Origin: a virus | DNA: 25,142 nt | IMG/VR virus record: IMGVR_UViG_3300032307_000492 | Coordinates: 1 to 25,142 of that record | Reading direction: 5' to 3' (one strand) | In this document: positions 9,021-23,403 of the stretch, piece by piece | How positions within the stretch are numbered: the first letter of the stretch is position 1 | How the letters are laid out: each line of letters begins with the position of its first letter | Program-made: the position numbers and the translations under genes | Notes under the pieces: generated by a model | What the model was told of the DNA's origin: nothing | Seen by the model: only the letters and a program-made list of their open reading frames with translations | Database searches by the model: none

Positions 9021-10922
9021 ATGAGCAAAATCATCGGTATCGACTTAGGTACAACAAATAGCTGTGTGGCAATCCTAGAAAACGGTATTGCTAAAGTAAT
9101 TGAAAACAGCGAAGGTGCTAGAACAACACCGTCAATCGTAGCTTACACCAAAGACGAAATTTTAGTCGGTGCAACAGCAAAACGACAAGCAGTTACAAAT
9201 CCAAAAAATACAATCTACGCTAGCAAGCGACTAATCGGACGTAAGTTTGATGAGCAAGCCGTGCAAAAAGACATTGGTCTGATGCCTTACTCAATCATCA
9301 AAGCCGACAATGGCGATGCATGGGTAGAAGCAAATGGCGAGAAATTAGCACCACCGCAAATCTCAGCAGAGGTATTGCGTAAAATGAAAAAGACAGCGGA
9401 GGATTATCTTGGTACAACAGTTACACAAGCGGTTATCACAGTCCCTGCGTACTTTAACGACAGCCAAAGACAAGCTACTAAAGATGCTGGAAAGATCGCA
9501 GGCTTGGAAGTACTCCGTATTATTAACGAGCCTACTGCGGCAGCTCTTAGTTATGGTGTTGATAAGTCTGATAAAAAAGATAGGAAAATTGCTGTTTACG
9601 ATCTTGGTGGTGGTACATTCGACGTATCAATCATTGAAATCGCAAACATTGACGGCGATAAGCAAATTGAAGTTCTAAGCACCAACGGTGATACATTCCT
9701 TGGTGGTGAGGACTTTGACCAAGCTATCATGGATTTCCTAGTTGACGAGTTTAAGAAAGATTCAGGCATCGATTTAAAGAAAGATATGTTGGCATTGCAA
9801 CGTTTGAAAGACTCAGCAGAAAAAGCCAAGATCGAACTGTCTAGCAGTGCAAGTACAGATGTAAACTTGCCTTATATCACAGCAGATGCATCTGGCCCTA
9901 AACACTTAAATGTCAAACTGACCCGTGCCAAATTTGAAGCAATGGTAGAGTCATTGATCCAACGTTCTATAGAGCCTTGCAAGATTGCAATGAAGGACGC
10001 TAATGTAACACCGAGCGACATCGACGAGGTTATCCTTGTGGGTGGTCAGACTCGTATGCCTAAAGTACAAGAAGCAGTTGAGAAACTGTTTGGTAAGGCA
10101 CCACGTAAAGACGTTAATCCAGACGAAGCTGTTGCCGCAGGTGCCGCTATTCAAGGCGCAGTGTTAGCAGGCGACAAGACAGACGTGCTATTGCTAGACG
10201 TTACTCCGTTGAGCTTGGGTATCGAAACAATGGGCGGTGTGTTTACCAAGTTGATTCAAAAGAATACAACTATCCCAACCAAGCACTCACAGACATTCTC
10301 AACAGCAGAAGACAACCAGCCAGCAGTTACTATTAAAGTAGCACAAGGCGAACGTGAGTTGTACAAATACAATAAAGCACTTGGCGAGTTTAACTTAGAA
10401 GGTATTGCTCCAGCAATGCGTGGCCAGCCACAGATCGAAGTTACGCTTGACATCGATGCTAACGGTATTCTTAACGTCAGTGCCAAGGACAAGAATACTG
10501 GTAAAGAAAATAAGATCACTATCAAGTCAGACTCTGGATTAACTGATGCAGAAATTCAACGTATGGTGCGTGAAGCTGAAGAAAATGCTGAATCTGATAA
10601 GAAGTTACGTGAGCTTATCGAGGCACGTAACAGTGCCGAAGGTACTACTCATTCTTTAAAGAAAGACTTTGAAGAATTCAAAGATCAATTGACAGAAGAA
10701 GAGAAGACCAAGATTGAAGAAGCGTTTGCTACTGTTGACACTACTGTGGCAGGAGAAGATGCTGACGCAATTAAAAAATCTTTAGAGTCATTATTTGAAT
10801 CAGCATCTCCTGTGTTCCAAAAGAAACAAGCCGCAGAGCAAGCCAAGCAACAATCTGCTCAAAGCGGTGAACAAACAGTAGATGCCAGCTTCACAGAAGT
10901 TGACGCTGAAGATAAAAAGTAA
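9021..10922 (+). CDS. dnaK: Molecular chaperone DnaK (Hsp70), full length
   Basis: A 633-residue Hsp70, close to the 638 of E. coli DnaK. It has the [13 protein letters not shown] phosphate-1 motif (residues 5-16), K69 in [11 protein letters not shown] (equivalent to catalytic K70), [12 protein letters not shown] (phosphate 2), [11 protein letters not shown] (adenosine motif), the interdomain linker [13 protein letters not shown], a beta-sandwich substrate domain, a helical lid and a disordered Gln/Ala tail ending [10 protein letters not shown]. All parts look intact, so it should be active with host DnaJ and GrpE, which are not encoded in this window. The sequence is strongly proteobacterial and looks most like betaproteobacteria. 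A complete dnaK is rare in phage genomes. It has a late-type promoter and precedes hsp20 and clpS. Confidence 0.97.
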
Positions 10923-10928
10923 TATAAT
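10900..10928 (+). promoter_or_regulatory. Sigma70-type promoter for hsp20, inside the end of dnaK
   Basis: TTGACG (10900-10905), a 17-base spacer and TATAAT (10923-10928). The -35 box lies in the last codons of dnaK and the -10 box just after its stop codon. It could let hsp20 and clpS be made independently of dnaK. Confidence 0.75.
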
Positions 10929-10950
10929 GTAAACAAGTAGGGTGCCTATA

Positions 10951-10962
10951 GTAGGGCCCTAC
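10951..10962 (+). promoter_or_regulatory. 12-bp palindrome in the hsp20 leader
   Basis: GTAGGGCCCTAC is a perfect palindrome between the hsp20 -10 box and its start codon. A second GTAGGG copy lies at 10937-10942. The dnaK leader has the related GTAAGGGCTTTAC at the same distance from a shared TTCTTGCT segment. Confidence 0.5.
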
Positions 10963-10990
10963 ACAGTTCTTGCTAATAAGGAGATCTAAA

Positions 10991-11419
10991 ATGCAGACAC
11001 AATTAAGAACAATCGACACAGCCGCTCTAGCACAATTGAGCAAAGCACTAGTAGGTTTTGATCGCTATTTCAGCGCACCTCATCACCAAAATGGTAACTA
11101 TCCTCCTCACAATATTGTAAAATACAGTGACGATACTTACGCAATTGAAGTTGCAGTAGCAGGCTTTACCAGAGAAGAAGTTACAGTAGAAGTTGATCAA
11201 GACCAACTAACTATCCGTGGAGTTAAGAATCGTCCAACTGAAGATATTGGAATCGAGTATTTACATCGTGGATTGGCAGCTAGGGATTTTGAACAGACAT
11301 TTACCCTAGCTGAGTACATGGAAGTCGTTGGGGCTAAAGTAGCAGACGGAATGTTGCAAATTGACATTAAACGTTTGGTTCCAGAAGCACTCAAACCTCG
11401 AGTAATCGAAGTTAAGTAA
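10991..11419 (+). CDS. hsp20: Small heat-shock protein Hsp20 (IbpA-like)
   Basis: A 142-residue alpha-crystallin-domain protein, an ATP-independent holdase that keeps unfolded proteins soluble for refolding by DnaK. The start ATG at 10991 is chosen because AAGGAG lies 7 bases upstream. The N-terminus (LSKALVGFDRYFS) and the core (YAIEVAVAGFTREEVTVEVDQDQLTIRGVK...LHRGLAARDFEQTFTLAEYMEVVGAKVADGMLQIDI) match IbpA/Hsp20 proteins, and the C-terminus ends PRVIEV, the I-x-V-like tail used for oligomer contacts. Hsp20 is a typical core gene of T4-like cyanophages and pelagimyophages. Here it stands between dnaK and clpS. Confidence 0.95.
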   Translation: MQTQLRTIDTAALAQLSKALVGFDRYFSAPHHQNGNYPPHNIVKYSDDTYAIEVAVAGFTREEVTVEVDQDQLTIRGVKNRPTEDIGIEYLHRGLAARDFEQTFTLAEYMEVVGAKVADGMLQIDIKRLVPEALKPRVIEVK

Positions 11420-11436
11420 AATGTAAATACAACCAT

Positions 11437-11460
11437 GGGGAAGGAAACTTCCCCAATTTT
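11437..11460 (+). terminator. Hairpin resembling a rho-independent terminator between hsp20 and clpS
   Basis: GGGGAAG (11437-11443), GAAA tetraloop, CTTCCCC (11448-11454), then AATTTT. The 7-bp stem with a GNRA loop is strong, but the T-tract is short, so partial termination or mRNA end protection are both possible. The clpS start follows 14 bases later. Confidence 0.6.
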
Positions 11461-11473
11461 AAAAGAGAACAAC

Positions 11474-11776
11474 ATGCCTAGTACTGATATTCAATTAGAT
11501 GAAAAAATCAAAGTAACTGTTTCAGAGCCTAAACTCTGGAAAGTTATATTACTTAATGATGATTCAACTCCTATGGAATTTGTAATTTCATTATTGATGT
11601 CAATTTTTAAACACAGCACAGAATCGTCTAAAGAAATCATGTTGCAAGTACATGAAACTGGTAGCGGCGTTGCAGGAATATACAGCTTTGAAATTGCAGA
11701 AGCTAAAGCTGTGGAAGCAACTAGCCAAGCCAGAGGCGAAGGGCATCCATTACAAATTAAACTGGAAGAAGAATGA
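11474..11776 (+). CDS. clpS: ClpS adaptor of the N-degron pathway
   Basis: A 100-residue ClpS. The start is the ATG at 11474; an upstream ATG at 11435 would read through the hairpin. The family core is clear: LWKVILLNDDSTPMEFVISLLMSIF with the NDD triad (residues about 28-30) that contacts the N-terminal amino group, then IMLQVHETGSGVAGIYSFEIAEAKA, in which the His of VHETG and the GVAGIY turn line the substrate pocket, and RGEGHPLQIKLEEE at the end. ClpS hands proteins with destabilising N-terminal residues to ClpAP. A phage copy may redirect host proteolysis. Its stop overlaps the heme oxygenase start (ATGA). Confidence 0.92.
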   Translation: MPSTDIQLDEKIKVTVSEPKLWKVILLNDDSTPMEFVISLLMSIFKHSTESSKEIMLQVHETGSGVAGIYSFEIAEAKAVEATSQARGEGHPLQIKLEEE

Positions 11777-12324
11777 GTCTAAAAGAGTTAACCAAGGAAG
11801 CGCATAGTAATGCAGAAAGACAAGAGTTTGTAAAGATTTTATTTTCAGGCAGTATAGATCCTAAACTCTATGCAACCTATTTAAAAAATCAGCACCCTAT
11901 GTATGAAGTGTTAGAAGTTTGTGCAATGCCTCATTTGCTATTGCACGGATTACCTGATATTCGTAGGGCACCAGCTATCTTGGAAGACTTTATTGAATTG
12001 TGGGGTCAGGACAATAAGGAACAACCAAAAATTTGTCCTTCGACTATGAAGTATGTAGAGTATGTTCTCAGCATCAAAGACGATCCTAAGAAACTAATGG
12101 CACATTTGTATGTTCGTCACATGGGCGACTTAGCAGGTGGACAAATGATTGCTAAACGTGTTCCAGGTTCTGGCAAGTACTATCAGTTTGCAGACCCGGA
12201 AGCACTTAAAATAGCAATACGAGAAAGATTAGATGACAGCATGTCCGATGAAGCCAAGGTGTGCTTTGAATATGCAACCACATTCTTTCAAGACATGATG
12301 ACAATCGCCAATGAGTCAAAATAA
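11773..12324 (+). CDS. Heme oxygenase
   Basis: A 183-residue heme oxygenase, which opens heme to biliverdin IXalpha, CO and Fe2+ using ferredoxin-type electrons. The proximal heme ligand is H11 in KEAHSNAER. The distal helix, with the flexible glycine segment above the heme, is HMGDLAGGQMIAKRVPG (GDLAGGQ at residues 118-124). Length and motif spacing are normal. It overlaps clpS at the start and the bilin reductase at the end by 14 bases, so heme opening and bilin reduction are translationally coupled. In cyanophages the same pair makes phycobilins; here the host is probably not a cyanobacterium. Release of heme iron is an additional possible benefit. Confidence 0.93.
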   Translation: MSLKELTKEAHSNAERQEFVKILFSGSIDPKLYATYLKNQHPMYEVLEVCAMPHLLLHGLPDIRRAPAILEDFIELWGQDNKEQPKICPSTMKYVEYVLSIKDDPKKLMAHLYVRHMGDLAGGQMIAKRVPGSGKYYQFADPEALKIAIRERLDDSMSDEAKVCFEYATTFFQDMMTIANESK

Positions 12325-12997
12325 AGTTTGGGACACACTGATAGATATACAACATCTATTAGAAAATAAATTTAACGAAACAGGCTTTGAAATTAACGAG
12401 CCTGGAATGGATCGATTCAATCAACCCGGATGGGTCAATCGAGTATGGACCAGTGAAACGTATCGCAGAGCACACATAGATGTAGTAGATGCTAGAGATA
12501 CAAAAGGTCTATGGATGATGCACTGTTGCATTTTCCCACATATACATAATCCAGCACCTATATACGGATTTGATGTAATTGCCGGCAAGAATAAAATTAC
12601 TGGTTGTTTCCATGATTACTCTAAAGCCGGAGATCCTAACCATCCTATGATGGAATGGTTTGCCGGTGAAGTGGCCAAACTAGAATGGCGTAAAGAACGT
12701 ACTTTACCCGAATGGGCTACTAACATTTTTAGCGGCAGTATGGTGGCTGCTGGTAATGTACAAGACGAATCTGAGTTAGAACAGATTACTCAACTGGCAT
12801 ACACTACTATAGAACATTATCTGGCCACTGTGGGCGAAACTAACAATACTGCAATAGACACCACAGAAGCACAGAATTACTATGCACAGAATCAAAAGTG
12901 CAACCCGCATACACCTCGAGTAATGGTCAGTTTAGGACTTTCTGAGGACGATGTTCGGCATTTCATACATGAATGCCTCTTCCCTGAAATTCGATAA
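12311..12997 (+). CDS. pcyX: Ferredoxin-dependent bilin reductase (PcyA/PcyX-like)
   Basis: A 228-residue enzyme of the ferredoxin-dependent bilin reductase family, which reduces biliverdin. The core YRRAHIDVVDARDTKGLWMMHCCIFPHIHNPAPIYGFDVIAGKNKITGCFHDYS aligns with the PcyA/PebS signature. H71 (MMHC) corresponds to PcyA H88 and D88 (YGFDV) to PcyA D105. D57 (AHID) stands where PcyA has the catalytic Glu76 (LHLE). The C-terminal FIHECLFPEI also fits the family. From memory, phages outside the cyanophages carry a PcyA-related enzyme, PcyX, that makes phycoerythrobilin, and this gene is a good candidate. The product is not provable from sequence. No ferredoxin or phycobiliprotein gene is in the window. 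Confidence 0.87.
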   Translation: MSQNKVWDTLIDIQHLLENKFNETGFEINEPGMDRFNQPGWVNRVWTSETYRRAHIDVVDARDTKGLWMMHCCIFPHIHNPAPIYGFDVIAGKNKITGCFHDYSKAGDPNHPMMEWFAGEVAKLEWRKERTLPEWATNIFSGSMVAAGNVQDESELEQITQLAYTTIEHYLATVGETNNTAIDTTEAQNYYAQNQKCNPHTPRVMVSLGLSEDDVRHFIHECLFPEIR

Positions 12998-13007: not shown

Positions 13008-14765
13008 ATGAGATTTCAAGAATTTAAATATATTTTAAGCGAAGCCAGCGGTGGCATGTGGGATCGTATGAACGAGCGCCGTTCAGGAAAACCTATTATT
13101 TTTACTAAAAATGGCGAATCGCTAGACTTGGTAGATGTTCAAGTATTCCCAAGAGACCCTAAGATTAATTCCTATAAAGAATTTGAAGTACCCGCAGTTG
13201 CTCCTAAACAACCAGCTACTGCTACAGCAGTTGCACCAGCTCCAACTCCAGAACCTGCTGCCGAACCCCAGCCTCAACAGCCCACATGGAAAGGACGAAA
13301 ACCAGCTCCTGTAGACCAAGATATTGAAGAACCTGGGGAACTGGAACAAAAGACGTTGGCAGAACGTAAACAGCCAGTACCAGTAGAAACAACTGAACCT
13401 GTACATATCAAAATTATGTTGGCAGATATCCTAGCATGGATACAAAGCCAAGGCGCACAGATTGAATACGCCGAGCGACCAAAGAATACAGCCGCAGCCG
13501 CTATGGTGGTTATATTAGGCGGACAAGATGCTGATGGCAACGAAAAGAAACTGGCATTTGTTAATTGGTATCCTACAAAGATTGCAAATAAAATTCCTCC
13601 ACTATTTTGGAAGACTATTCGATTTGAAGAAGCCACTGGCTGGGTTCAAGGTAATGCTGGAAAAAGTGCAACGGCCAAAGCCGCTGTACTTAGAATGGAT
13701 CCTTCCGACCTACTGGAAGCAGAACAATCGTACGACATTTCACAAGTGCCAACATTAATTACCAACGGTAAGATGGCTGCTCGTATTGATATGCCACCGG
13801 AACTTAAATCTGGGATTCCAGATTTACTTAGTGATTTAGCCAACGGTCCTAATCCTACACCTGTACCAGGATTAGAAAAGTACGAACGTGAAATTGAAGT
13901 AGTATTGGGAGAAACTGCGGCTCCGATCGCTTTAATGACTGGTAATAGAGTTTCTGGCGCTTACAATGATGTTACAGAACAACTATTACAACAAATGGAG
14001 CCACCGTTAACTTGGCAAGATTTTACCCAAGTGATTTACGGTAAAAAAGGTGGTAAAGTTGAAGACTGTTCAATGTATGCCGGCGAAGTAAAACTAATGG
14101 TAAGTAGTAAAGATAGCAAAGGCGGCGCGGCCGCCAGTTTGACAGGGTTTATGGAAACAGTAGAAAAGAATCCTACGCAATTCGGCCCAGGTACTGAATT
14201 TTATGGTCAATACAAAGATATCTTTACCACACTGGAACTGATACACAAAAACACCGGTGTCCAAGGTATATTAGAAGCATCTAAAGATTTAAAGTTTATA
14301 GACGATACTGAGTTGAAATTTATTCGCTCTATCTACAACACAGGTAGAGGAACAATGGCAGATGTTGAAGTCTACCCAAATTTACCCACAGTACTAAAAG
14401 CCAAAGGTATTAAAGGCGCAATGGTCACTAATAGTAAAGGAAAACGTGTAGCATCAGGTGCAGGTGTTGACGTTACTAATCCTAAGTATCAATTAGGATA
14501 TCACTTGTTAGGTAATCTAGCAGTGATGATTCAAAAGCATTTTGCTAAAGATCAAGATAGAGTTACTGCACTGTTCAAATCTGTACTAAACAGAGCAGAT
14601 ATGGTACAAGTCTACACCAAAGTTGATACAAACAATCAAGGGCTTTGGTTTGAAGATTTTAAAGTTACATGGCCGCCAACATTTAACGGCAAAATTATTA
14701 TTTTAGCAGATCATTACACAGCTAATGCACCTGCTGGTAAGAAAATCAGCTTCAAGTTTGTTTAA
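13008..14765 (+). CDS. Putative capsid-targeted, injected protein with T4-type CTS
   Basis: A 585-residue soluble protein from the ATG at 13008, placed 7 bases after a late promoter; an earlier ATG at 12951 lies inside the bilin reductase gene. Its N-terminus MRFQEFKYILSEASGG resembles the capsid-targeting sequence of T4 internal proteins (MKTYQEFIAEA...). It has the prohead-protease consensus (I/L)-x-E before Ala/Ser/Gly, giving a predicted cut after E12 (L10-S11-E12). A Pro/Ala/Gln-rich linker follows (about 60-130), then a large alpha/beta region with no motif I recognise (ILADILAWIQSQG..., GGKVEDCSMYAGEVKLMVSSKDSKGGAAAS, LGYHLLGNLAVMIQKHF). Late timing and the CTS suggest packaging with DNA and injection, as with T4 Alt. 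Its activity is unknown. Confidence 0.72.
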   Translation: MRFQEFKYILSEASGGMWDRMNERRSGKPIIFTKNGESLDLVDVQVFPRDPKINSYKEFEVPAVAPKQPATATAVAPAPTPEPAAEPQPQQPTWKGRKPAPVDQDIEEPGELEQKTLAERKQPVPVETTEPVHIKIMLADILAWIQSQGAQIEYAERPKNTAAAAMVVILGGQDADGNEKKLAFVNWYPTKIANKIPPLFWKTIRFEEATGWVQGNAGKSATAKAAVLRMDPSDLLEAEQSYDISQVPTLITNGKMAARIDMPPELKSGIPDLLSDLANGPNPTPVPGLEKYEREIEVVLGETAAPIALMTGNRVSGAYNDVTEQLLQQMEPPLTWQDFTQVIYGKKGGKVEDCSMYAGEVKLMVSSKDSKGGAAASLTGFMETVEKNPTQFGPGTEFYGQYKDIFTTLELIHKNTGVQGILEASKDLKFIDDTELKFIRSIYNTGRGTMADVEVYPNLPTVLKAKGIKGAMVTNSKGKRVASGAGVDVTNPKYQLGYHLLGNLAVMIQKHFAKDQDRVTALFKSVLNRADMVQVYTKVDTNNQGLWFEDFKVTWPPTFNGKIIILADHYTANAPAGKKISFKFV

Positions 14766-14828: not shown

Positions 14829-15278
14829 ATGTTCAATAAATTATTAGTAGGATTAAGCGTACTGCTAGTCTTTTCGCCCACAACGTCGGCGGAATTAATA
14901 CACAATTTTCAAAGTCCAGCCTTTATTCCAGGCAATGGCTTCAGCCAGCACGTCCTTAGTATCTACCAATTAGAAGAAGGTAAAAAGAAAGAAATTCGAT
15001 CTGAAGAATTAGCCGCAATTGCCAAGGCAGAAGCAGCCGCAAAACAAACAAATCTAAGCAAATTCCTAGTTAACGTAGAAGCACGTATCTACGCACAATT
15101 GTCTAAACAACTAGCAGATCAAATGTTTGCCGAAGGTACTGGAAATAGTGGAAATATGAATTTCCAAGGAACTAACATCAGTTGGGTAAAAACAGGTACA
15201 GACGTTACCCTAACTATCATAGAATCTAATGGTAGTAGAACTGAAATTGTTGTACCAATTGCGAGTTTTGCATTTTGA
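14829..15278 (+). CDS. csgF: CsgF-like curli assembly factor
   Basis: A 149-residue secreted protein. A signal peptide ends about residue 21 (FSPTTSA). The mature N-terminus ELIHNFQSPAFIPGNGFSQHVLSIYQLEE matches the CsgF start, where (F/Q)xNPxFGGNP binds the inside of the CsgG pore, and a helix is followed by a C-terminal beta region (NISWVKTGTDVTLTIIESNGSRTEIVVPIASF), also as in CsgF. CsgF works at the cell surface to couple CsgG export to nucleation. The length is close to E. coli CsgF (138). Its stop overlaps the csgG start by one base. Expression is probably late. Confidence 0.85.
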   Translation: MFNKLLVGLSVLLVFSPTTSAELIHNFQSPAFIPGNGFSQHVLSIYQLEEGKKKEIRSEELAAIAKAEAAAKQTNLSKFLVNVEARIYAQLSKQLADQMFAEGTGNSGNMNFQGTNISWVKTGTDVTLTIIESNGSRTEIVVPIASFAF

Positions 15279-16054
15279 TGAAGTCGATATTATCATTATT
15301 TCTAGCTACAGTTCTTTCAGGATGTGCGGTTATTCATATGGATGTTGCCAAACAAGAAGAGCCAGTAACGTTGACGCCTCGTCAAAGTTTAGCTGATAGT
15401 ATTCCAGAATTAGACGGTCCTCCTATCACTATTGCAGTATATGGATTCTTGGATAGAACAGGTCAGATGAAACCTAATGATAGGATAGCAGTGTTTAGTA
15501 AAGCAGTGACACAGGGTTCGGAAGTATTTTTAATTAAAGCGTTACAAGATTCAAAGAATTGGTTTAAAGTAGTAGAACGTGTGGGATTAGATAATCTTAT
15601 CAAAGAGAGACAATTGATTCGTAACCAACGTGAAGTTTACGAAGGTAAAGATGCTAGAGCCCTTAAACCAATGACAGTGGCAGGTGTAATGATCGAAGGC
15701 GGAATTATTGGCTACGATAGTAACATCAGAAGTGGCGGTAACGGTGCTAGATTTCTTGGCATCGGTGGTAGTCAGCAGTATCGTGTGGACGAAGTTGTAA
15801 TTAGTTTAAGACTGATAAGCGTGAATAGCGGAGAAATATTGCTGTCGAACGCTGTGAGCAAGACTATTTACAGTACACAACACAATGTAGGAGTATTGAG
15901 ATTTGTAGATGCCGGAACCAAAGCATTAGAATTAGAAAATGGTATGGCATTGAACGAACCAACGACATATGCAGTTCGAGTAGCTATTGAACAAGCAGTG
16001 TATGATATGATAATACAAGGTGAAAGGAAGGGCATCTGGCGATTTAAAAAATAA
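15278..16054 (+). CDS. csgG: CsgG-like outer-membrane curli secretion lipoprotein
   Basis: A 258-residue lipoprotein from the ATG at 15278; a TTG one codon earlier is less likely. The lipobox LSGC gives an acylated Cys at residue 16. The rest follows CsgG: PITIAVYGFLDRTGQMKPN, a long region with GSEVFLIKALQDSKNWFKVVERVGLDNLIKERQLI, MIEGGIIGYDSNIRSGGNGARFLGIGGSQQYRVDEVVISLRLISVNSGEIL, and the C-terminal AVEQAVYDMI-like IEQAVYDMIIQGERKGIW. CsgG makes a nine-fold pore in the outer membrane for unfolded curlin subunits. Length is similar to E. coli CsgG (277). csgE, the usual periplasmic gate factor, is not in this window. Confidence 0.92.
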   Translation: MKSILSLFLATVLSGCAVIHMDVAKQEEPVTLTPRQSLADSIPELDGPPITIAVYGFLDRTGQMKPNDRIAVFSKAVTQGSEVFLIKALQDSKNWFKVVERVGLDNLIKERQLIRNQREVYEGKDARALKPMTVAGVMIEGGIIGYDSNIRSGGNGARFLGIGGSQQYRVDEVVISLRLISVNSGEILLSNAVSKTIYSTQHNVGVLRFVDAGTKALELENGMALNEPTTYAVRVAIEQAVYDMIIQGERKGIWRFKK

Positions 16055-16055
16055 C

Positions 16056-16074
16056 GGCACATCTTAGATGTGTC
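16056..16074 (+). other. Hairpin directly before the curlin ribosome-binding site
   Basis: An 8-bp stem (GGCACATC and GATGTGTC, one G:T pair) with a TTA loop, ending immediately before AAGGAG. No T-run follows. It could stabilise or separate the curlin mRNA from that of csgG, allowing a higher level of the subunit. Confidence 0.5.
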
Positions 16075-16089
16075 AAGGAGCGAAATAAA

Positions 16090-16761
16090 ATGGTTGTAAG
16101 AATAAAAGGCGGTGGCGGGTTGTCGAGAAAATTACTCGCAATACTATTGGCATCTGGAATGGTGTCAACGGGAGCATGGGCTAACGATGTGTATGTTGAA
16201 CAGATCGGCGATAATTCTTCTGTGAGCATTACACAAACTGGTGCTGGTAACACGGTCAATGGTAACGTGGGAGGAACTGGCAATGCAGACGATGCTGCCA
16301 TAATTCGCGGCGACCTTAATTCTGTAACTATCAGCCAAATAGGTGCTAGTAACACATTGAGTTTGATCATTAATAATGAGACCAGCGGCACAGGCTCTAC
16401 GGTAGTAGTGTCGGCAGACGGCAGTAATAACAATCAAACTATCGGCTGTGGCACGGCATTGAGTTCAACTTGTAATGCCAGTGTTATTAGATCAGAAATT
16501 ACTGGTAATAGCAACAACACTGTTCAAACATTGAGTGGCGGAGTTGTACAAAGTAAAATTGCTGTTAATGGAAGCTATAATAATGTAACACACGTTGCAT
16601 CCGGTGTCGGATTACACAACGGTGAGATTACAGTAAGCGGCAGTGGAACGAGTCAACTAGCTAATGCAGTAACATTGACACAGAGTGGAGCGTTCGCTAA
16701 AAATGCAATTATTACCAGCAACGGCAGCAATAATAATATTTCTGTTACTCAGTCCGATTAA
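16090..16761 (+). CDS. Curlin-repeat protein (CsgA/CsgB-like amyloid subunit)
   Basis: A 223-residue secreted protein. A signal peptide (RKLLAILLASGMVSTGAWA) is probably cut after residue 31. The mature part is Asn/Ser/Thr/Gly-rich with curlin-type strand-turn repeats, best in VYVEQIGDNSSVSITQTGAGNTVNG and IRGDLNSVTISQIGASNTLSLI (S-x5-Q-x-G-x2-N spacing). Further degenerate units follow, such as SEITGNSNNTVQTLSGG, SKIAVNGSYNNVTHVASG and the final SNGSNNNISVTQS. Two cysteines (CGTALSSTC) could form a disulfide, unusual in curlins. This is the likely substrate exported by CsgG. The FecR-type gene starts inside its 3' end. Confidence 0.85.
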   Translation: MVVRIKGGGGLSRKLLAILLASGMVSTGAWANDVYVEQIGDNSSVSITQTGAGNTVNGNVGGTGNADDAAIIRGDLNSVTISQIGASNTLSLIINNETSGTGSTVVVSADGSNNNQTIGCGTALSSTCNASVIRSEITGNSNNTVQTLSGGVVQSKIAVNGSYNNVTHVASGVGLHNGEITVSGSGTSQLANAVTLTQSGAFAKNAIITSNGSNNNISVTQSD

Positions 16762-17803
16762 TGGCCATGCTGGTATAGGCAAGGTTACTGAACAAACTGG
16801 ACCAACAGAAATAACTAGGAATAAAAAAAGTATCTCCTCGAGCCTAAACACGGGAGTAGAAATGAACGATACAGTCAGCACTGCCAAGGCTCGGGCAGAA
16901 CTGACATTCGAAGATAAAACCACAGTAAAACTGACAGAACATTCAAAAATGATTATAGATGATTTTGTCTATGATCCAAAGAAAGGCTCAGGCAAATTGG
17001 CTTTGAATATGGCCTTGGGTACTGCAAGATACGCCAGCGGACAAATAGCCAAAAACAATCCCCAGCAGGTGGCAATTAAAACACCAACTGCCACTATTGC
17101 AGTGCGCGGTACAGATTTTTCAATGACGGTGGATGAACTGGGCCGAAGTCTTGTAGTGCTATTACCTAGTTGTGATGCCAAAGGCTGTGTTACCGGAGCC
17201 ATTGAAGTCCGCAACTTTGGAGGTGTTGTGTTGTTGGATGTGCCATATCAAGCCACACTAGTCAACAGTGCCTACACAATGCCAACGGAACCTGTAGTGG
17301 TCAAATTGGATCAAGCAAATATTAATAACATGTTGATCATAAGTAAACCTAAAGAAGTCTCAGAAGCAGAACAAGCAGGCACAGTTAAAAAAGAAAAAGG
17401 ATTATTAGATTTTAATGAATTAGACATTGACTTATTAAAATTTACAGCCTTAGATGAAAATTCTTTGGATAAAAAGAATGCATTGGATCGAAATGATTTA
17501 GACGCAGACCTACTGGCATTTAATTCTTTAAATGAACTAGACAGACAAAATGCTAGTTTGTTGAGCAATGAACTAGACAATCCTATACTTCCAGGATACT
17601 CGGCAAATAAATCTCTAGGACTGATGTTCTATTTCAACGACGATCAAACTAAAGTTACATTATATAAAGCAGGTACACACAATGCTACAGCAACATTTGA
17701 TACAACAAAAAATGTAACATTCACATTGAATCAAAGTGGACAGACTATTATTCAAAACGTCAACAAAGGCAGTACTAGTACAGTGTCTATTACACAGAAT
17801 TAA
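16703..17803 (+). CDS. Secreted FecR-domain protein
   Basis: A 366-residue protein from the ATG at 16703, with GGAG upstream; a GTG at 16685 is the alternative start. The signal peptide is about residues 1-23 (IIIFLLLSPINGHA). A FecR domain follows (about 24-190): GKVTEQTGPTEITRNKK...LNTGVEMNDTVSTAKARAELTFEDKTTVKLTEHSKMIIDDFVYDP...GTARYASGQIAKNNPQQVAIKTPTATIAVRGTDFSM. The TPTATIAVRGTDF motif is characteristic. An acidic, Leu/Asp/Asn-rich linker with loosely repeated LDxN(D/S)LD units follows, then a short beta domain. Periplasmic or surface FecR domains occur beside curli and adhesin genes. It overlaps the curlin gene by 59 bases, so its signal peptide is overprinted. Confidence 0.82.
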   Translation: MQLLPATAAIIIFLLLSPINGHAGIGKVTEQTGPTEITRNKKSISSSLNTGVEMNDTVSTAKARAELTFEDKTTVKLTEHSKMIIDDFVYDPKKGSGKLALNMALGTARYASGQIAKNNPQQVAIKTPTATIAVRGTDFSMTVDELGRSLVVLLPSCDAKGCVTGAIEVRNFGGVVLLDVPYQATLVNSAYTMPTEPVVVKLDQANINNMLIISKPKEVSEAEQAGTVKKEKGLLDFNELDIDLLKFTALDENSLDKKNALDRNDLDADLLAFNSLNELDRQNASLLSNELDNPILPGYSANKSLGLMFYFNDDQTKVTLYKAGTHNATATFDTTKNVTFTLNQSGQTIIQNVNKGSTSTVSITQN

Positions 17804-20027: not shown

Positions 20028-20050
20028 AAACCCGCTTCGGCGGGTTTTTT
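20028..20050 (+). terminator. Rho-independent terminator after the curli/autotransporter block
   Basis: AAACCCGC (20028-20035), TTCG tetraloop, GCGGGTTT (20040-20047), then further T residues. It is a strong, canonical terminator, 20 bases after the stop codon and immediately before the late promoter of the next unit. Confidence 0.93.
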
Positions 20051-20053
20051 AAC

Positions 20054-20061
20054 GATAAATA
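20054..20061 (+). promoter_or_regulatory. T4-type late promoter (GATAAATA), leaderless arrangement
   Basis: GATAAATA ends 6 bases before the ATG at 20068, with no room for a ribosome-binding site. It starts 3 bases after the terminator, so the metallopeptidase and cyclase pair is an independent late unit. Confidence 0.75.
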
Positions 20062-20067
20062 CTTCAT

Positions 20068-20622
20068 ATGAAAATCTACGAAATAATTGCTGAAGCGGAA
20101 GCCAGCGATACTGAACTTAAACAACGTTATGGCGACTTTGAACCTAAAGATAAGCCAATGCTACCAACAACGCAAGTTGGCGGCGCGCCTGCTCCTACTC
20201 TTTGGTCAGCTTATGATGCTATTCAAGATGTACTAGGACGAGGCAGAGTAACGGATGATGAAGACGCTATAGAACCGGGTATGTACTATGTTTATCAAAG
20301 TAATGAGCCTCCAATGTTCAGAGATACTGAAGAATCAGGCCCGGGTGGCAGTATTAATATTCCCAATTTAGAAAGTAAAGCGGCACGCGATGTAGCAGTG
20401 GCAGTACACGAAGCATGTCACGCATATGTACATGACAAGGTCAAAGGCGCAGGACAAGCATTTTCAAATGAAAAAATTATCAACAACTTGGCAGAAAAAT
20501 GGCTACGTAAACATCTATCAGGCCCGGCACTGCATGTTGCATTAGAAACTATCACCGGTAGCCGTATCAGCTACGGTAAAGATCATATACCAAAGGGTCC
20601 ATTGACGGATAGAAGAGAATGA
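20068..20622 (+). CDS. Capsid-targeted putative zinc metallopeptidase (HExxH)
   Basis: A 184-residue protein. The N-terminus MKIYEIIAEAEAS closely follows the T4 capsid-targeting sequence (MKTYQEFIAEA); the prohead-protease motif I7-A8-E9 before A10 predicts cleavage after E9. The middle carries HEACH at residues 114-118 in a helix (DVAVAVHEACHAYVHDK), the zinc-binding HExxH signature. A glutamate 17 residues later (NEKIINNLAEKW, E135) could be the third ligand, as in gluzincins. Its substrate is unknown. The CTS implies that mature enzyme is packaged in the head and injected, perhaps to cut a host defence or regulatory protein. It overlaps the cyclase gene by 4 bases. Confidence 0.78.
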   Translation: MKIYEIIAEAEASDTELKQRYGDFEPKDKPMLPTTQVGGAPAPTLWSAYDAIQDVLGRGRVTDDEDAIEPGMYYVYQSNEPPMFRDTEESGPGGSINIPNLESKAARDVAVAVHEACHAYVHDKVKGAGQAFSNEKIINNLAEKWLRKHLSGPALHVALETITGSRISYGKDHIPKGPLTDRRE

Positions 20623-22679
20623 AAATAGAATTTAAGAAAATATTAGTAAGTCCTTGGACTGCACTATTAACTTTACTACTAGTGGTGGGTCTCCGAATGG
20701 CGGATCCTACATTTGTTGAAAGTGTGAGACTGAGATACTTTGACACACTAATCACTAGTCAAGTACCTACAGACAATAATATTGTTACAGTGAATATTGA
20801 TGAAGAATCACTGGCCAAGTACGGTCAGTGGCCATTACCGAGAGCTGAATATGCCAAAATTATACGAGATCTATATCAGAGGGGAGCAGGACTTGTTGTA
20901 CTTAACGTACTCATGCCAGAACCGGATCGTACAGGTGGTGACTACCTCTTGGGTCAAACTCTAAAAGAATTTCCAGTTGTATTGAGCAGTGTAGGTGCAG
21001 AAAAAAATAAAAATACTGCTCGTCGCCCAGGATTAATGGTTGTAGGACCATATGAAGCGCCGGTTCCTACATACTCTGGAATTATTGCTAACGTACCACA
21101 GTTAGAAAATTCAGCTGTAGGCGTTGGAACAACTAACACACTGCCTGAAGTAGACGGTGTTAATCGTCGCATGCCATTACTGACTCAGGTACAGGATAAT
21201 ACCGGCACATTCATTTATCCTAGTCTAGCTATGGAGATACTACGTGTGGCTGCTGGAGATACTACACAACAGGTCAAGTTGAATGAGTACGGTGTTGAGA
21301 AAATGCGTATTCCTAAATTTGGTCCTATTAGCACAGATCCGTTTGGTCGTGTATGGATTGATTGGAGTCAACAAAATAAATCAGTATCGTTGGCCAACTT
21401 ACCAAAAGACTTTGAAGGCGCAATTGTTATAGTAGGACCTACTGCCGCAGGCATTGCTAATCCATTACCTACCAGTATGGGATCAGTATGGCCGCAAGAT
21501 GTACAGGCTAAGGTAGTGGCCACTATGTTTAACAACGTGAATATACAACGTCCAGACTATGCAGACGGAGTTGAAATCATAGCGTTGTTGGCATTTGGTT
21601 TATTATTAATTTTCTTATCGAGGTGGACTTATGTTGGCATTTGTGCTACTGTGGTTATTGTTGGTGCCGTCGTTCCTGGTACTATGTACGCTTTCAATAA
21701 TTGGCTCATCTTATCAGACGCGACTGCAATCGCGTTTGGGCTTATTATCGTTGCTCTTCATACTTATGGCGTTAAATTTGTGAGCGAGTTCTTACAGAAG
21801 CAAGCCATTAAGAAACAGTTTGCTGGATATTGCAGTAAAGAAGTTGTGGAGATGCTACAGAAAGATCCAGACTTGATCAAGCGTGGTGTGCGTAAAGATG
21901 TGTCAGTTATGTTCAGTGACTTGCGTGGCTTTACTCCTATTGGGGAACACTACGGTGATGATGTAGGCGGACTGGGCAAATACATGAATGGTTATATGGA
22001 TGCTATCAGCCGCCCTATTATGGACAACAATGGTATGGTCATCAAGTATGTAGGCGATGCGTCGATGCACATTCACGGTGCTCCTATTGACGATGCTAAC
22101 CATGCACACACTATTGTTAAAGTAGGACTTGAGATGTTAGATGCTGTTGACGAGTATACTAAGTTAATGGAAGCACAAGGATTACCACCTGCGGCAATGG
22201 GTTGGGGTTGTAACACAGGTATTGGCTTTATTGGCGAAATGGGGTCAACTGATAGACACAGCTACGATATCTTAGGTGACATGGTTAGTACTGCGGCACG
22301 ACTAGAAGCACGTTGCAAGGCTTACGGTGTGTTGGCTATTATTGGTGCGGAAACATATAACAGAACCAAAGACGATTTCTTCTACTTGCTGTTAGACAAC
22401 TTACAACCTAAAGGTAAAACAGTAGCAGACTTGATTTACACAGTGTTACGTACTCGAGGTGAAGATTATAGTAAAGACCGAGAGCAACACGAAAAGATGC
22501 ATGCCTTGTATAAACAGAAAAAGTTTGACGAAGCGGCCGCTATGTGTAAAAAGCTAAACGGTAACTTTGGTGGGCAGATGGACAAGTACTACAAAATTTG
22601 GATCGAACGTTGTGACTTTATGAAACAACAAGATTTAGGTCCTAATTGGAATGGTGAGTTTGTAGCCCACGAAAAATAA
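20619..22679 (+). CDS. CHASE2-domain class III adenylate cyclase
   Basis: A 686-residue membrane enzyme. One N-terminal membrane helix (about 8-26), a periplasmic CHASE2 sensor (about 33-310; FDTLITSQ..., VNIDEESLAKYGQWPLPRAEYAKIIRDLYQRGAGLVVLNVLM), three membrane helices (about 318-335, 338-358, 362-383), a short linker and a class III cyclase domain (about 425-620). Metal-binding Asp residues are D434 (FSDLRGFT) and D480 (KYVGDA), the adenine-reading pair is K476 and D550 (HSYDILGD), and the transition-state Arg is R561. The conserved Asn seven residues after D550 is Ser557 here. It should make cAMP in the host in response to a periplasmic signal. It is translationally coupled to the metallopeptidase gene. 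Confidence 0.92.
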   Translation: MKIEFKKILVSPWTALLTLLLVVGLRMADPTFVESVRLRYFDTLITSQVPTDNNIVTVNIDEESLAKYGQWPLPRAEYAKIIRDLYQRGAGLVVLNVLMPEPDRTGGDYLLGQTLKEFPVVLSSVGAEKNKNTARRPGLMVVGPYEAPVPTYSGIIANVPQLENSAVGVGTTNTLPEVDGVNRRMPLLTQVQDNTGTFIYPSLAMEILRVAAGDTTQQVKLNEYGVEKMRIPKFGPISTDPFGRVWIDWSQQNKSVSLANLPKDFEGAIVIVGPTAAGIANPLPTSMGSVWPQDVQAKVVATMFNNVNIQRPDYADGVEIIALLAFGLLLIFLSRWTYVGICATVVIVGAVVPGTMYAFNNWLILSDATAIAFGLIIVALHTYGVKFVSEFLQKQAIKKQFAGYCSKEVVEMLQKDPDLIKRGVRKDVSVMFSDLRGFTPIGEHYGDDVGGLGKYMNGYMDAISRPIMDNNGMVIKYVGDASMHIHGAPIDDANHAHTIVKVGLEMLDAVDEYTKLMEAQGLPPAAMGWGCNTGIGFIGEMGSTDRHSYDILGDMVSTAARLEARCKAYGVLAIIGAETYNRTKDDFFYLLLDNLQPKGKTVADLIYTVLRTRGEDYSKDREQHEKMHALYKQKKFDEAAAMCKKLNGNFGGQMDKYYKIWIERCDFMKQQDLGPNWNGEFVAHEK

Positions 22680-22689
22680 AATGGTTAAC

Positions 22690-23403
22690 TTAAATAGGTG
22701 TTGTACGAATTTTTGCAAGACCTATTGAGCTTAATAGTTTAATCCACATCCAGCCTTCATCAAATTCAAACCAACGTTGTTTGAAACTGGCATTAGCACC
22801 ATCTGCATGATGGTTGTTGTGCAGTTCTTCACCACCGATTATAAATGCTATAGGAATTAAGTTACGACTAGTATCCTTGGTATCAGTATTACGATATCCA
22901 ACCCAATGTGCCAAACCATTTACAACTCCAGCCGCCCAAAATGGAATCCATATCATTTGAATACCCCACACTAATAAGCCCCATGGTCCAAAAAGAACAA
23001 GGTTTATAACCAACATCAATAGAATACCAAGGCGGCTGTGTGTGGAGTAAACGTTACGCTCTAGCCAATCGTTAGGAGTTCCTACTCCCAACTTTTCAAC
23101 CATAGCAGAATCTTTGCTAGCAGAGTGATATAAAAATGCGCCACCGAATAACACACGCCAAATTCCGTATATCTGTGGACTGTGTGGATCTCCGTGTGTA
23201 TCGCTAGTCTGATGATGTTTGCGGTGAATTGCTACCCACTGTTTTGTGACCATACCGGTTGTAAGCCACAACCAAAATCTCATAAAATGATCCACTACTG
23301 GATGGAATGATACTGCTCGATGTGTTTGACCTCTGTGTAAAAATAAGGTAACACATAGGATAGTAATGTGCGTCATTACCAACGTATATAGGATTATATT
23401 CAT
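22690..23403 (-). CDS. Membrane fatty-acid (acyl) desaturase
   Basis: A 237-residue integral-membrane di-iron desaturase. The three His boxes are complete: H23-RGQT-H28 (HxxxxH), H60-RK-HH (HxxHH) and H195-NN-HH (HxxHH in EELHNNHH). Hydrophobic helices lie between the boxes (about 4-22, 40-52, 125-165). This is the delta-9 stearoyl-type family, shorter than usual bacterial versions because the N-terminus is trimmed. It would introduce a double bond into host acyl chains, altering membrane fluidity. Electrons must come from host carriers. It is transcribed toward the cyclase gene, with only 10 bases between the two stop codons and no visible terminator. A late promoter lies 7 bases before its start. 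Confidence 0.93.
   Translation of the reverse strand: MNIILYTLVMTHITILCVTLFLHRGQTHRAVSFHPVVDHFMRFWLWLTTGMVTKQWVAIHRKHHQTSDTHGDPHSPQIYGIWRVLFGGAFLYHSASKDSAMVEKLGVGTPNDWLERNVYSTHSRLGILLMLVINLVLFGPWGLLVWGIQMIWIPFWAAGVVNGLAHWVGYRNTDTKDTSRNLIPIAFIIGGEELHNNHHADGANASFKQRWFEFDEGWMWIKLLSSIGLAKIRTTPI

Follow-up and report, generated by a model that had tools for sequence, protein, structure and literature searches.

The internal head proteins IPI, IPII and IPIII of phage T4 carry an N-terminal capsid-targeting sequence (CTS) of about ten residues, which in IPII and IPIII ends in I-A-E↓A, the arrow marking the cut (PMC3012670, PMC9026906, PMC12373910). Residues 1-10 of IPIII suffice for packaging, and the prohead protease gp21 cleaves after L/I-x-E (PMC9026906). 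Behind the common leader the mature parts are unrelated to each other; T4 Ip1-3 do not act as proteases but inhibit GmrSD restriction enzymes specifically (PMC12373910). T4 Alt, a packaged ADP-ribosyltransferase, is an enzyme carried in the head that acts at the start of infection (PMC5512222). Zincin-like MPTase domains are known from polyvalent proteins (phage P1 DdrB, N4 virion RNA polymerase) and are predicted to be delivered with the DNA; their layout was described by Iyer et al. as a helix, three strands, a HExxH helix and a Glu helix (PMC5512222).

Here we describe what appears from structural modelling to be a new combination, in which a zincin-like domain forms the mature part of a T4-type internal protein. 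The gene lies in a viral fragment of 25,142 bases from IMG/VR, the whole of which is referred to below as the window, and the source phage is large, of freshwater origin and related to T4. The CDS (20068..20622, plus strand) begins with ATG and encodes 184 residues, read as a capsid-targeting sequence followed by a gluzincin-like domain. MKIYEIIAE (20068..20094, plus strand) is the putative capsid-targeting propeptide, with the prohead-protease cut predicted after E9 from the comparison with T4 IPII and IPIII, from the border seen in the family and from the L/I-x-E rule (PMC9026906). The predicted mature protein, A10-E184 (20095..20619, plus strand), has a mass of 19.2 kDa and a pI of 5.4.

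The N-terminus MKIYEIIAE↓A was compared with MKTYQEFIAE↓A of ipII and ipIII in NC_000866. When MKIYE-IIAEA is set against MKTYQEFIAEA with one deletion, the residues M, K, Y, I, A, E and A are common to both, which confirms the likeness to the T4 capsid-targeting sequence noted in the initial annotation. As with the T4 internal proteins, unrelated mature parts stand behind a common leader, and a gp21-type protease is present, here in relatives. Unlike the T4 proteins described as restriction-enzyme inhibitors, the mature part is an acidic HExxH domain with an enzyme-like site.

A border of the form E↓A with I, L or V at P3 is found in 20 of 20 members of the family alignment (A1), P3 being V, not I or L, in four of them. 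In seven of the 20 the border lies 46-116 residues into the chain and is preceded by a Lys/Arg-Gly-Tyr-rich stretch or by another module, and the more distant member L071 starts with MRSYEFISE↓LKTSD. In G001, a relative's contig of 280 kb, the N-terminal Met is followed by a CTS-like pattern in 10 of 459 cases and an internal Met in one of 1507 (Fisher p = 3.9e-6), and in a second contig, G005, the corresponding numbers are 9 of 336 and 4 of 1246 (p = 2.5e-4). Since CTS-like starts are enriched at true N-termini, the resemblance of the tag is not due to chance. Most of the CTS-like genes of G005 cluster at 109-118 kb, and in G001 the HExxH gene adjoins another CTS gene.

The window is a 25 kb fragment without a head module, and the gp21-type protease is known from the relatives. 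The contigs of the three largest relatives contain PF03420 (T4 gp21 family, S77) above the curated cut-off, in the gene order portal, core, protease, scaffold and capsid, where the head-module genes were named from their position and from likeness in sequence. G005 and Pseudomonas phage PA5oct, a cultured relative, have capsid proteins of 67.5% identity, and the GenBank record of PA5oct marks 93 proteins as noted by ESI-MS/MS. CTS-like starts occur in six of these 93 proteins versus two to four of about 352 others (Fisher p 0.001-0.007), the range depending on how strictly a start is called with a hand-written pattern, and the list of 93 and the denominator both being read by eye from tables. 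The comparison is evidence that the tag marks virion proteins in this group, and it tests the tag, not the HExxH protein; a virion proteome of a phage carrying the HExxH gene was not found. Capsid targeting of the protein, as first proposed, is well supported by homology, namely by the invariant cut site, by the gp21-type protease and CTS-like gene set of relatives and by the CTS-like proteins among those with MS notes in PA5oct, and packaging of the HExxH protein in heads, predicted on these grounds, is likewise well supported.

The HEACH motif occupies residues 114-118 (H114, E115, H118; 20407..20421, plus strand). Between residues 119 and 150 the only Glu residues are E135, 17 past H118, and E143, 25 past H118, which agrees with the position of the possible third Glu ligand, 17 residues on, that had been pointed out before. 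Both are invariant and in the model sit on helix 135-149, the next helix after that of the motif. E135 (20470..20472, plus strand) belongs to an NE pair at the start of this helix, and it is preferred as the third zinc ligand over E143 (20494..20496, plus strand), a predicted alternative ligand or second-shell residue, because of this position and because HEXXH-x16-NE of the window protein resembles the HEXXH-x18-NE pattern of M1 and M61. The Glu of the predicted metal site is probably E135.

Two structure models were considered. The full-length model has a mean pLDDT of 71.9, with most core blocks at 75-92, and the core-only model a mean of 83.7, with 81 of 137 residues above 90. In both, the order is helix, three strands, HExxH helix, Glu helix, the same layout as in the zincin-like MPTases (PMC5512222). 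HEACH falls into a confidently predicted helix of both models (106-125 in the full-length and 71-90 in the core model, block pLDDT above 90 around the motif), and a second conserved Glu helix follows, as expected from the initial reading of the protein as a HExxH metallopeptidase. Foldseek against the PDB gave YfcM as the best match (E 0.047, TM 0.23, rmsd 13.6), and VIA gave Z values of up to 6.2, a range which the tool flags as a common arrangement. Nearly all entries in the two lists are HExxH metalloenzymes (M32, ACE/ACE2, M61, Spartan, abylysin, YfcM), ACE2 recurring so often because of the excess of its entries in the PDB; the M32 entries of the Foldseek list are carboxypeptidases, and an alphaKG-HExxH oxygenase (8s5f) is on it as well. 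The likeness to the gluzincins M32, M2 (ACE/ACE2), M61, Spartan/SprT and the minigluzincin abylysin consists of weak fold matches across the HExxH region, and the protein stands apart from the solved gluzincins in that no E value is below 0.001, no Z above 6.2 and identity to the structural matches about 7-18%. The match list is consistent with a zincin and assigns no family, and a zincin-like fold is well supported by the models. A HExxH fold does not always mean a peptidase.

Relatives of the HExxH gene are present in more than 30 IMG/VR contigs of up to 280 kb each, as found in tblastn-confirmed scans; two such scans gave 35 and then 40 loci, in mostly overlapping sets. No match was obtained with tblastn among 50,697 records of cultured phages, and 596 pattern matches in 84,980 bacterial and archaeal species genomes included no relative. 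Searches with the protein and with the 20-member alignment returned nothing above the cut-off in Pfam (best sub-threshold values PhoU 0.082 and DUF7881 0.043), nothing above threshold in PHROG (best E 0.013) and nothing above threshold in the PDB sequence search. H114, E115, H118, E135 and E143 are invariant in the 20 aligned members, down to 54-56% identity, and so are N134 and W145 wherever the members cover them. Among relatives C117 is replaced by Y and H122 by N, with the active-site residues unchanged. Values of dN/dS are 0.045-0.135 where dS was computable, dS being saturated in most pairs. The extended pattern of the ImmA/IrrE family (M78) is HExxHxxxH; a reading of this kind was dropped because H122 varies, being replaced in L071 (HEAYHAYANH, 54% identity). 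The ImmA/IrrE family is also absent among the PDB structures listed, an absence that proves nothing.

The reading favoured here, with confidence slightly better than even, is that of an internal head protein of the T4 type: its mature part would be a gluzincin-like zinc metallopeptidase, and the protein would be packaged, trimmed and injected and would cut a host protein. A T4-type head-loading tag joined to a zinc-protease-like domain makes it probable that the infecting phage brings the protein into the host cell. It would be made late in infection, residues 1-9 would dock it in the prohead core, and the gp21-type protease would cleave past E9 and release A10-E184 within the head, where the mature protein would be packed with the DNA and from where it would be ejected alongside the DNA into the host; the steps up to ejection are modelled on the T4 internal proteins by homology. 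H114, H118 and a Glu, probably E135, would then bind the metal, E115 would be the base that activates water, and a host protein would be cleaved, the likeliest target being one with a defence or regulatory role that has to be disabled before phage gene expression begins. Packaging, injection, metal binding, proteolysis and a host target are what we infer for the HExxH protein.

If this is true, a ready-made protease arrives with the DNA and could disarm the cell faster than any gene that needs expression. It would also add a new chemistry to the known T4-type internal proteins, among which IPI-III block restriction enzymes and Alt modifies proteins. The tag offers a simple way to list such cargo in uncultured phages, and the modular relatives suggest how phages may assemble and swap it. 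The parallel to T4 Alt, proposed here from sequence, lies in an enzyme carried by the head and acting when infection starts; the chemistry differs, and Alt is far larger than the 19 kDa HExxH protein. The MPTase domains of polyvalent proteins share the predicted layout and the predicted delivery with DNA, whereas the window protein is a stand-alone domain of 19 kDa with a T4-type tag. No sequence-level link to the MPTase domains of Iyer et al. 2017 was found in searches that did not include a direct comparison with their 12 published clades.

Since T4 Ip1-3 are restriction-enzyme inhibitors, a non-catalytic role is the main rival to a metallopeptidase. The protein would then be packaged and injected as a binding inhibitor or as a structural internal protein, with HExxH as a metal-stabilised scaffold that lacks protease activity. 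The leader-bearing Ip1, Ip2 and Ip3, which inhibit GmrSD enzymes specifically (PMC12373910), offer a precedent for this, as does N4 virion RNA polymerase, for whose HExxH domain the relevant passages establish no activity (PMC12633501). Against it stand H, E, H and both Glu residues, which remain invariant at 54-56% identity where the adjacent C117 and H122 change, and E115, a general base of which a scaffold has no need. We regard this alternative as unlikely, with a probability that is far from negligible.

The window protein has one domain, and the homologues L030, L023 and L014 have extra modules. A polyvalent protein in the sense of Iyer et al. 2017 has at least two unrelated domains per chain; with its one domain the window protein is not assigned to that class. 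The extra C-terminal modules of some homologues are a basic one, NFADGKKPGRKG... (pI 11.9), and FTNYQG...YHCTN, the latter by eye perhaps ADP-ribosyltransferase-like. Both modules are also found behind unrelated proteins and straight after a CTS (MRASEFITE↓NFADG, MCINELLE↓NFTNYQG), and the HExxH and NFADG modules follow the same kinds of spacer stretch. The basic NFADGKKPGRKGLAKR module has at least 583 matches in IMG/VR; like the FTNYQG...YHCTN module, it is attached to a wide range of unrelated phage proteins (L105-L117 and L129-L208 for the two modules), frequently close to a CTS-like start.

In sister phages modules are joined by a short in-frame DNA element, approximately CAAGGTGTGGCGGARGG, which codes for GVAE↓ preceded by Q, E or K and followed by G, A or N; its carriers are L117, L203, L111, L030, L014 and others. 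GVAE was found in 84 non-redundant contexts versus four to seven for each control tetrapeptide (GVTE 15), and 61 of the 84 use the codons GGT-GTG-GCG, for which codon use predicts 0.6%. DNA copies of the element lie in the GVAE frame in 58 of 59 cases. Its 18-mer occurs in at least 120 IMG/VR stretches, with no copy in the window, one in G001 and none in G005. The element has the appearance of a recurring junction between modules, with a prohead-protease-like site in its coding sequence, and to judge from their sequences the module junctions may be cleaved. Module borders in BLAST lie within five residues of [VIL]xE sites in 24% versus 15%, a weak enrichment, perhaps because BLAST ends are imprecise. 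The NFADG module is always preceded by E, but this does not prove cleavage: copies of the module are nearly identical, and the E may belong to it.

These features hint at a polyprotein system in which relatives exchange several modules, the HExxH domain among them, at prohead-protease-like sites. We put forward, tentatively and as a possibility that we would not yet expect to hold, that these jumbo phages carry combinatorial cleavable cargo. In their CTS-led polyproteins, exchangeable modules (HExxH, basic NFADG, FTNYQG/YHCT, others) would be linked through prohead-protease sites, and a single precursor would give rise, within the head, to several separate proteins for injection; the GVAE element would be both recombination point and cut site, and the window protein would be the one-module form.

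The same chains bear on a second rival, in which the HExxH protein is a processing peptidase whose substrates, instead of a host protein, are the multi-module internal proteins of the phage itself, cut either inside the head or shortly after entry. The CTS proteins of relatives do resemble module chains linked at E↓ sites, and self-processing was proposed for the zincin-like domains of polyvalent proteins (PMC5512222). The junctions, however, are gp21-like ([ILV]xE, GVAE↓), so the S77 protease already accounts for them, and the HExxH gene of the window encodes a single-module protein, which makes self-processing improbable.

More doubtful still is a non-peptidase metalloenzyme of similar fold, for instance a hydroxylase like YfcM/EpmC or an alphaKG-HExxH enzyme. 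YfcM tops the Foldseek list and the alphaKG-HExxH domain 8s5f is also on it, but the YfcM alignment is poor, the other Foldseek entries are mostly peptidases or their inactive-context relatives, and the conserved second Glu helix suits gluzincins. That the protein stays outside the virion and its tag-like N-terminus is a coincidence is very improbable, as such starts are enriched at real N-termini, the cut site is invariant and unrelated modules follow the same kind of tag.

Upstream of the HExxH gene an intrinsic-terminator-like hairpin, CCCGC TTCG GCGGG TTTTTT (20031..20050, plus strand, read from sequence), follows an autotransporter-like gene. The T4-late-promoter-like GATAAATAC (20054..20062, plus strand) starts 14 nt before the start codon; the consensus of T4 late promoters is TATAAATA. 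The homologue L003 is preceded by the same layout, terminator and then promoter. With 7 copies seen versus 8.5 expected, ATAAATA shows no excess in the window, so that the information lies solely in its position ahead of genes. A late promoter before the HExxH gene is likely on sequence grounds because TAAATA lies within 45 nt upstream in 9 of 22 family members and because TAAATA[CT] in the same stretch upstream of genes has a sense bias in two relatives (28 sense versus 9 antisense, and 21 versus 6).

The stop of the HExxH gene shares four nucleotides (ATGA, 20619-20622) with the start of a CHASE2 and adenylate/guanylate cyclase gene (20619..22679, plus strand; Pfam CHASE2 2.2e-41, Guanylate_cyc 8.3e-14). 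The cyclase overlaps or abuts the HExxH gene in the window, L027 and L035 and lies 290-740 bp off in L002, L003 and L021, and many relatives are without a nearby cyclase. In one phage group curli-type genes lie on one side of the HExxH gene and the cyclase on the other; a second group has no cyclase there, and its HExxH gene is found close to DNA polymerase-like genes and further CTS genes. Co-transcription with an adenylate cyclase, stated in the initial annotation, is plausible in the window, where the ATGA overlap is found and terminator and promoter lie just upstream, but the neighbour is not conserved, and a functional tie to the CHASE2 cyclase was dropped for that reason.

Other genes of the window include a full-length DnaK, an Hsp20-like protein and a ClpS-like adaptor, read from translations and consecutive at 9021-11776; heat-shock and ClpS genes also adjoin in PA5oct. 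A heme oxygenase gene is followed by, and overlaps with, that of a ferredoxin-dependent bilin reductase (11773-12997). Another CTS-like protein, MRFQEFKYILSE↓ASGG, is encoded at 13008-14765 with GATAAATA upstream (12993), and it gave no Pfam or PHROG family above threshold. A curli-like set of CsgF, CsgG, a curlin-repeat protein and a FecR-domain protein (14829-17803) is conserved in several relatives. A fatty-acid desaturase-like protein was recognized from its translation (22690-23403, minus strand); several relatives also encode it close to the HExxH gene, on one strand or the other.
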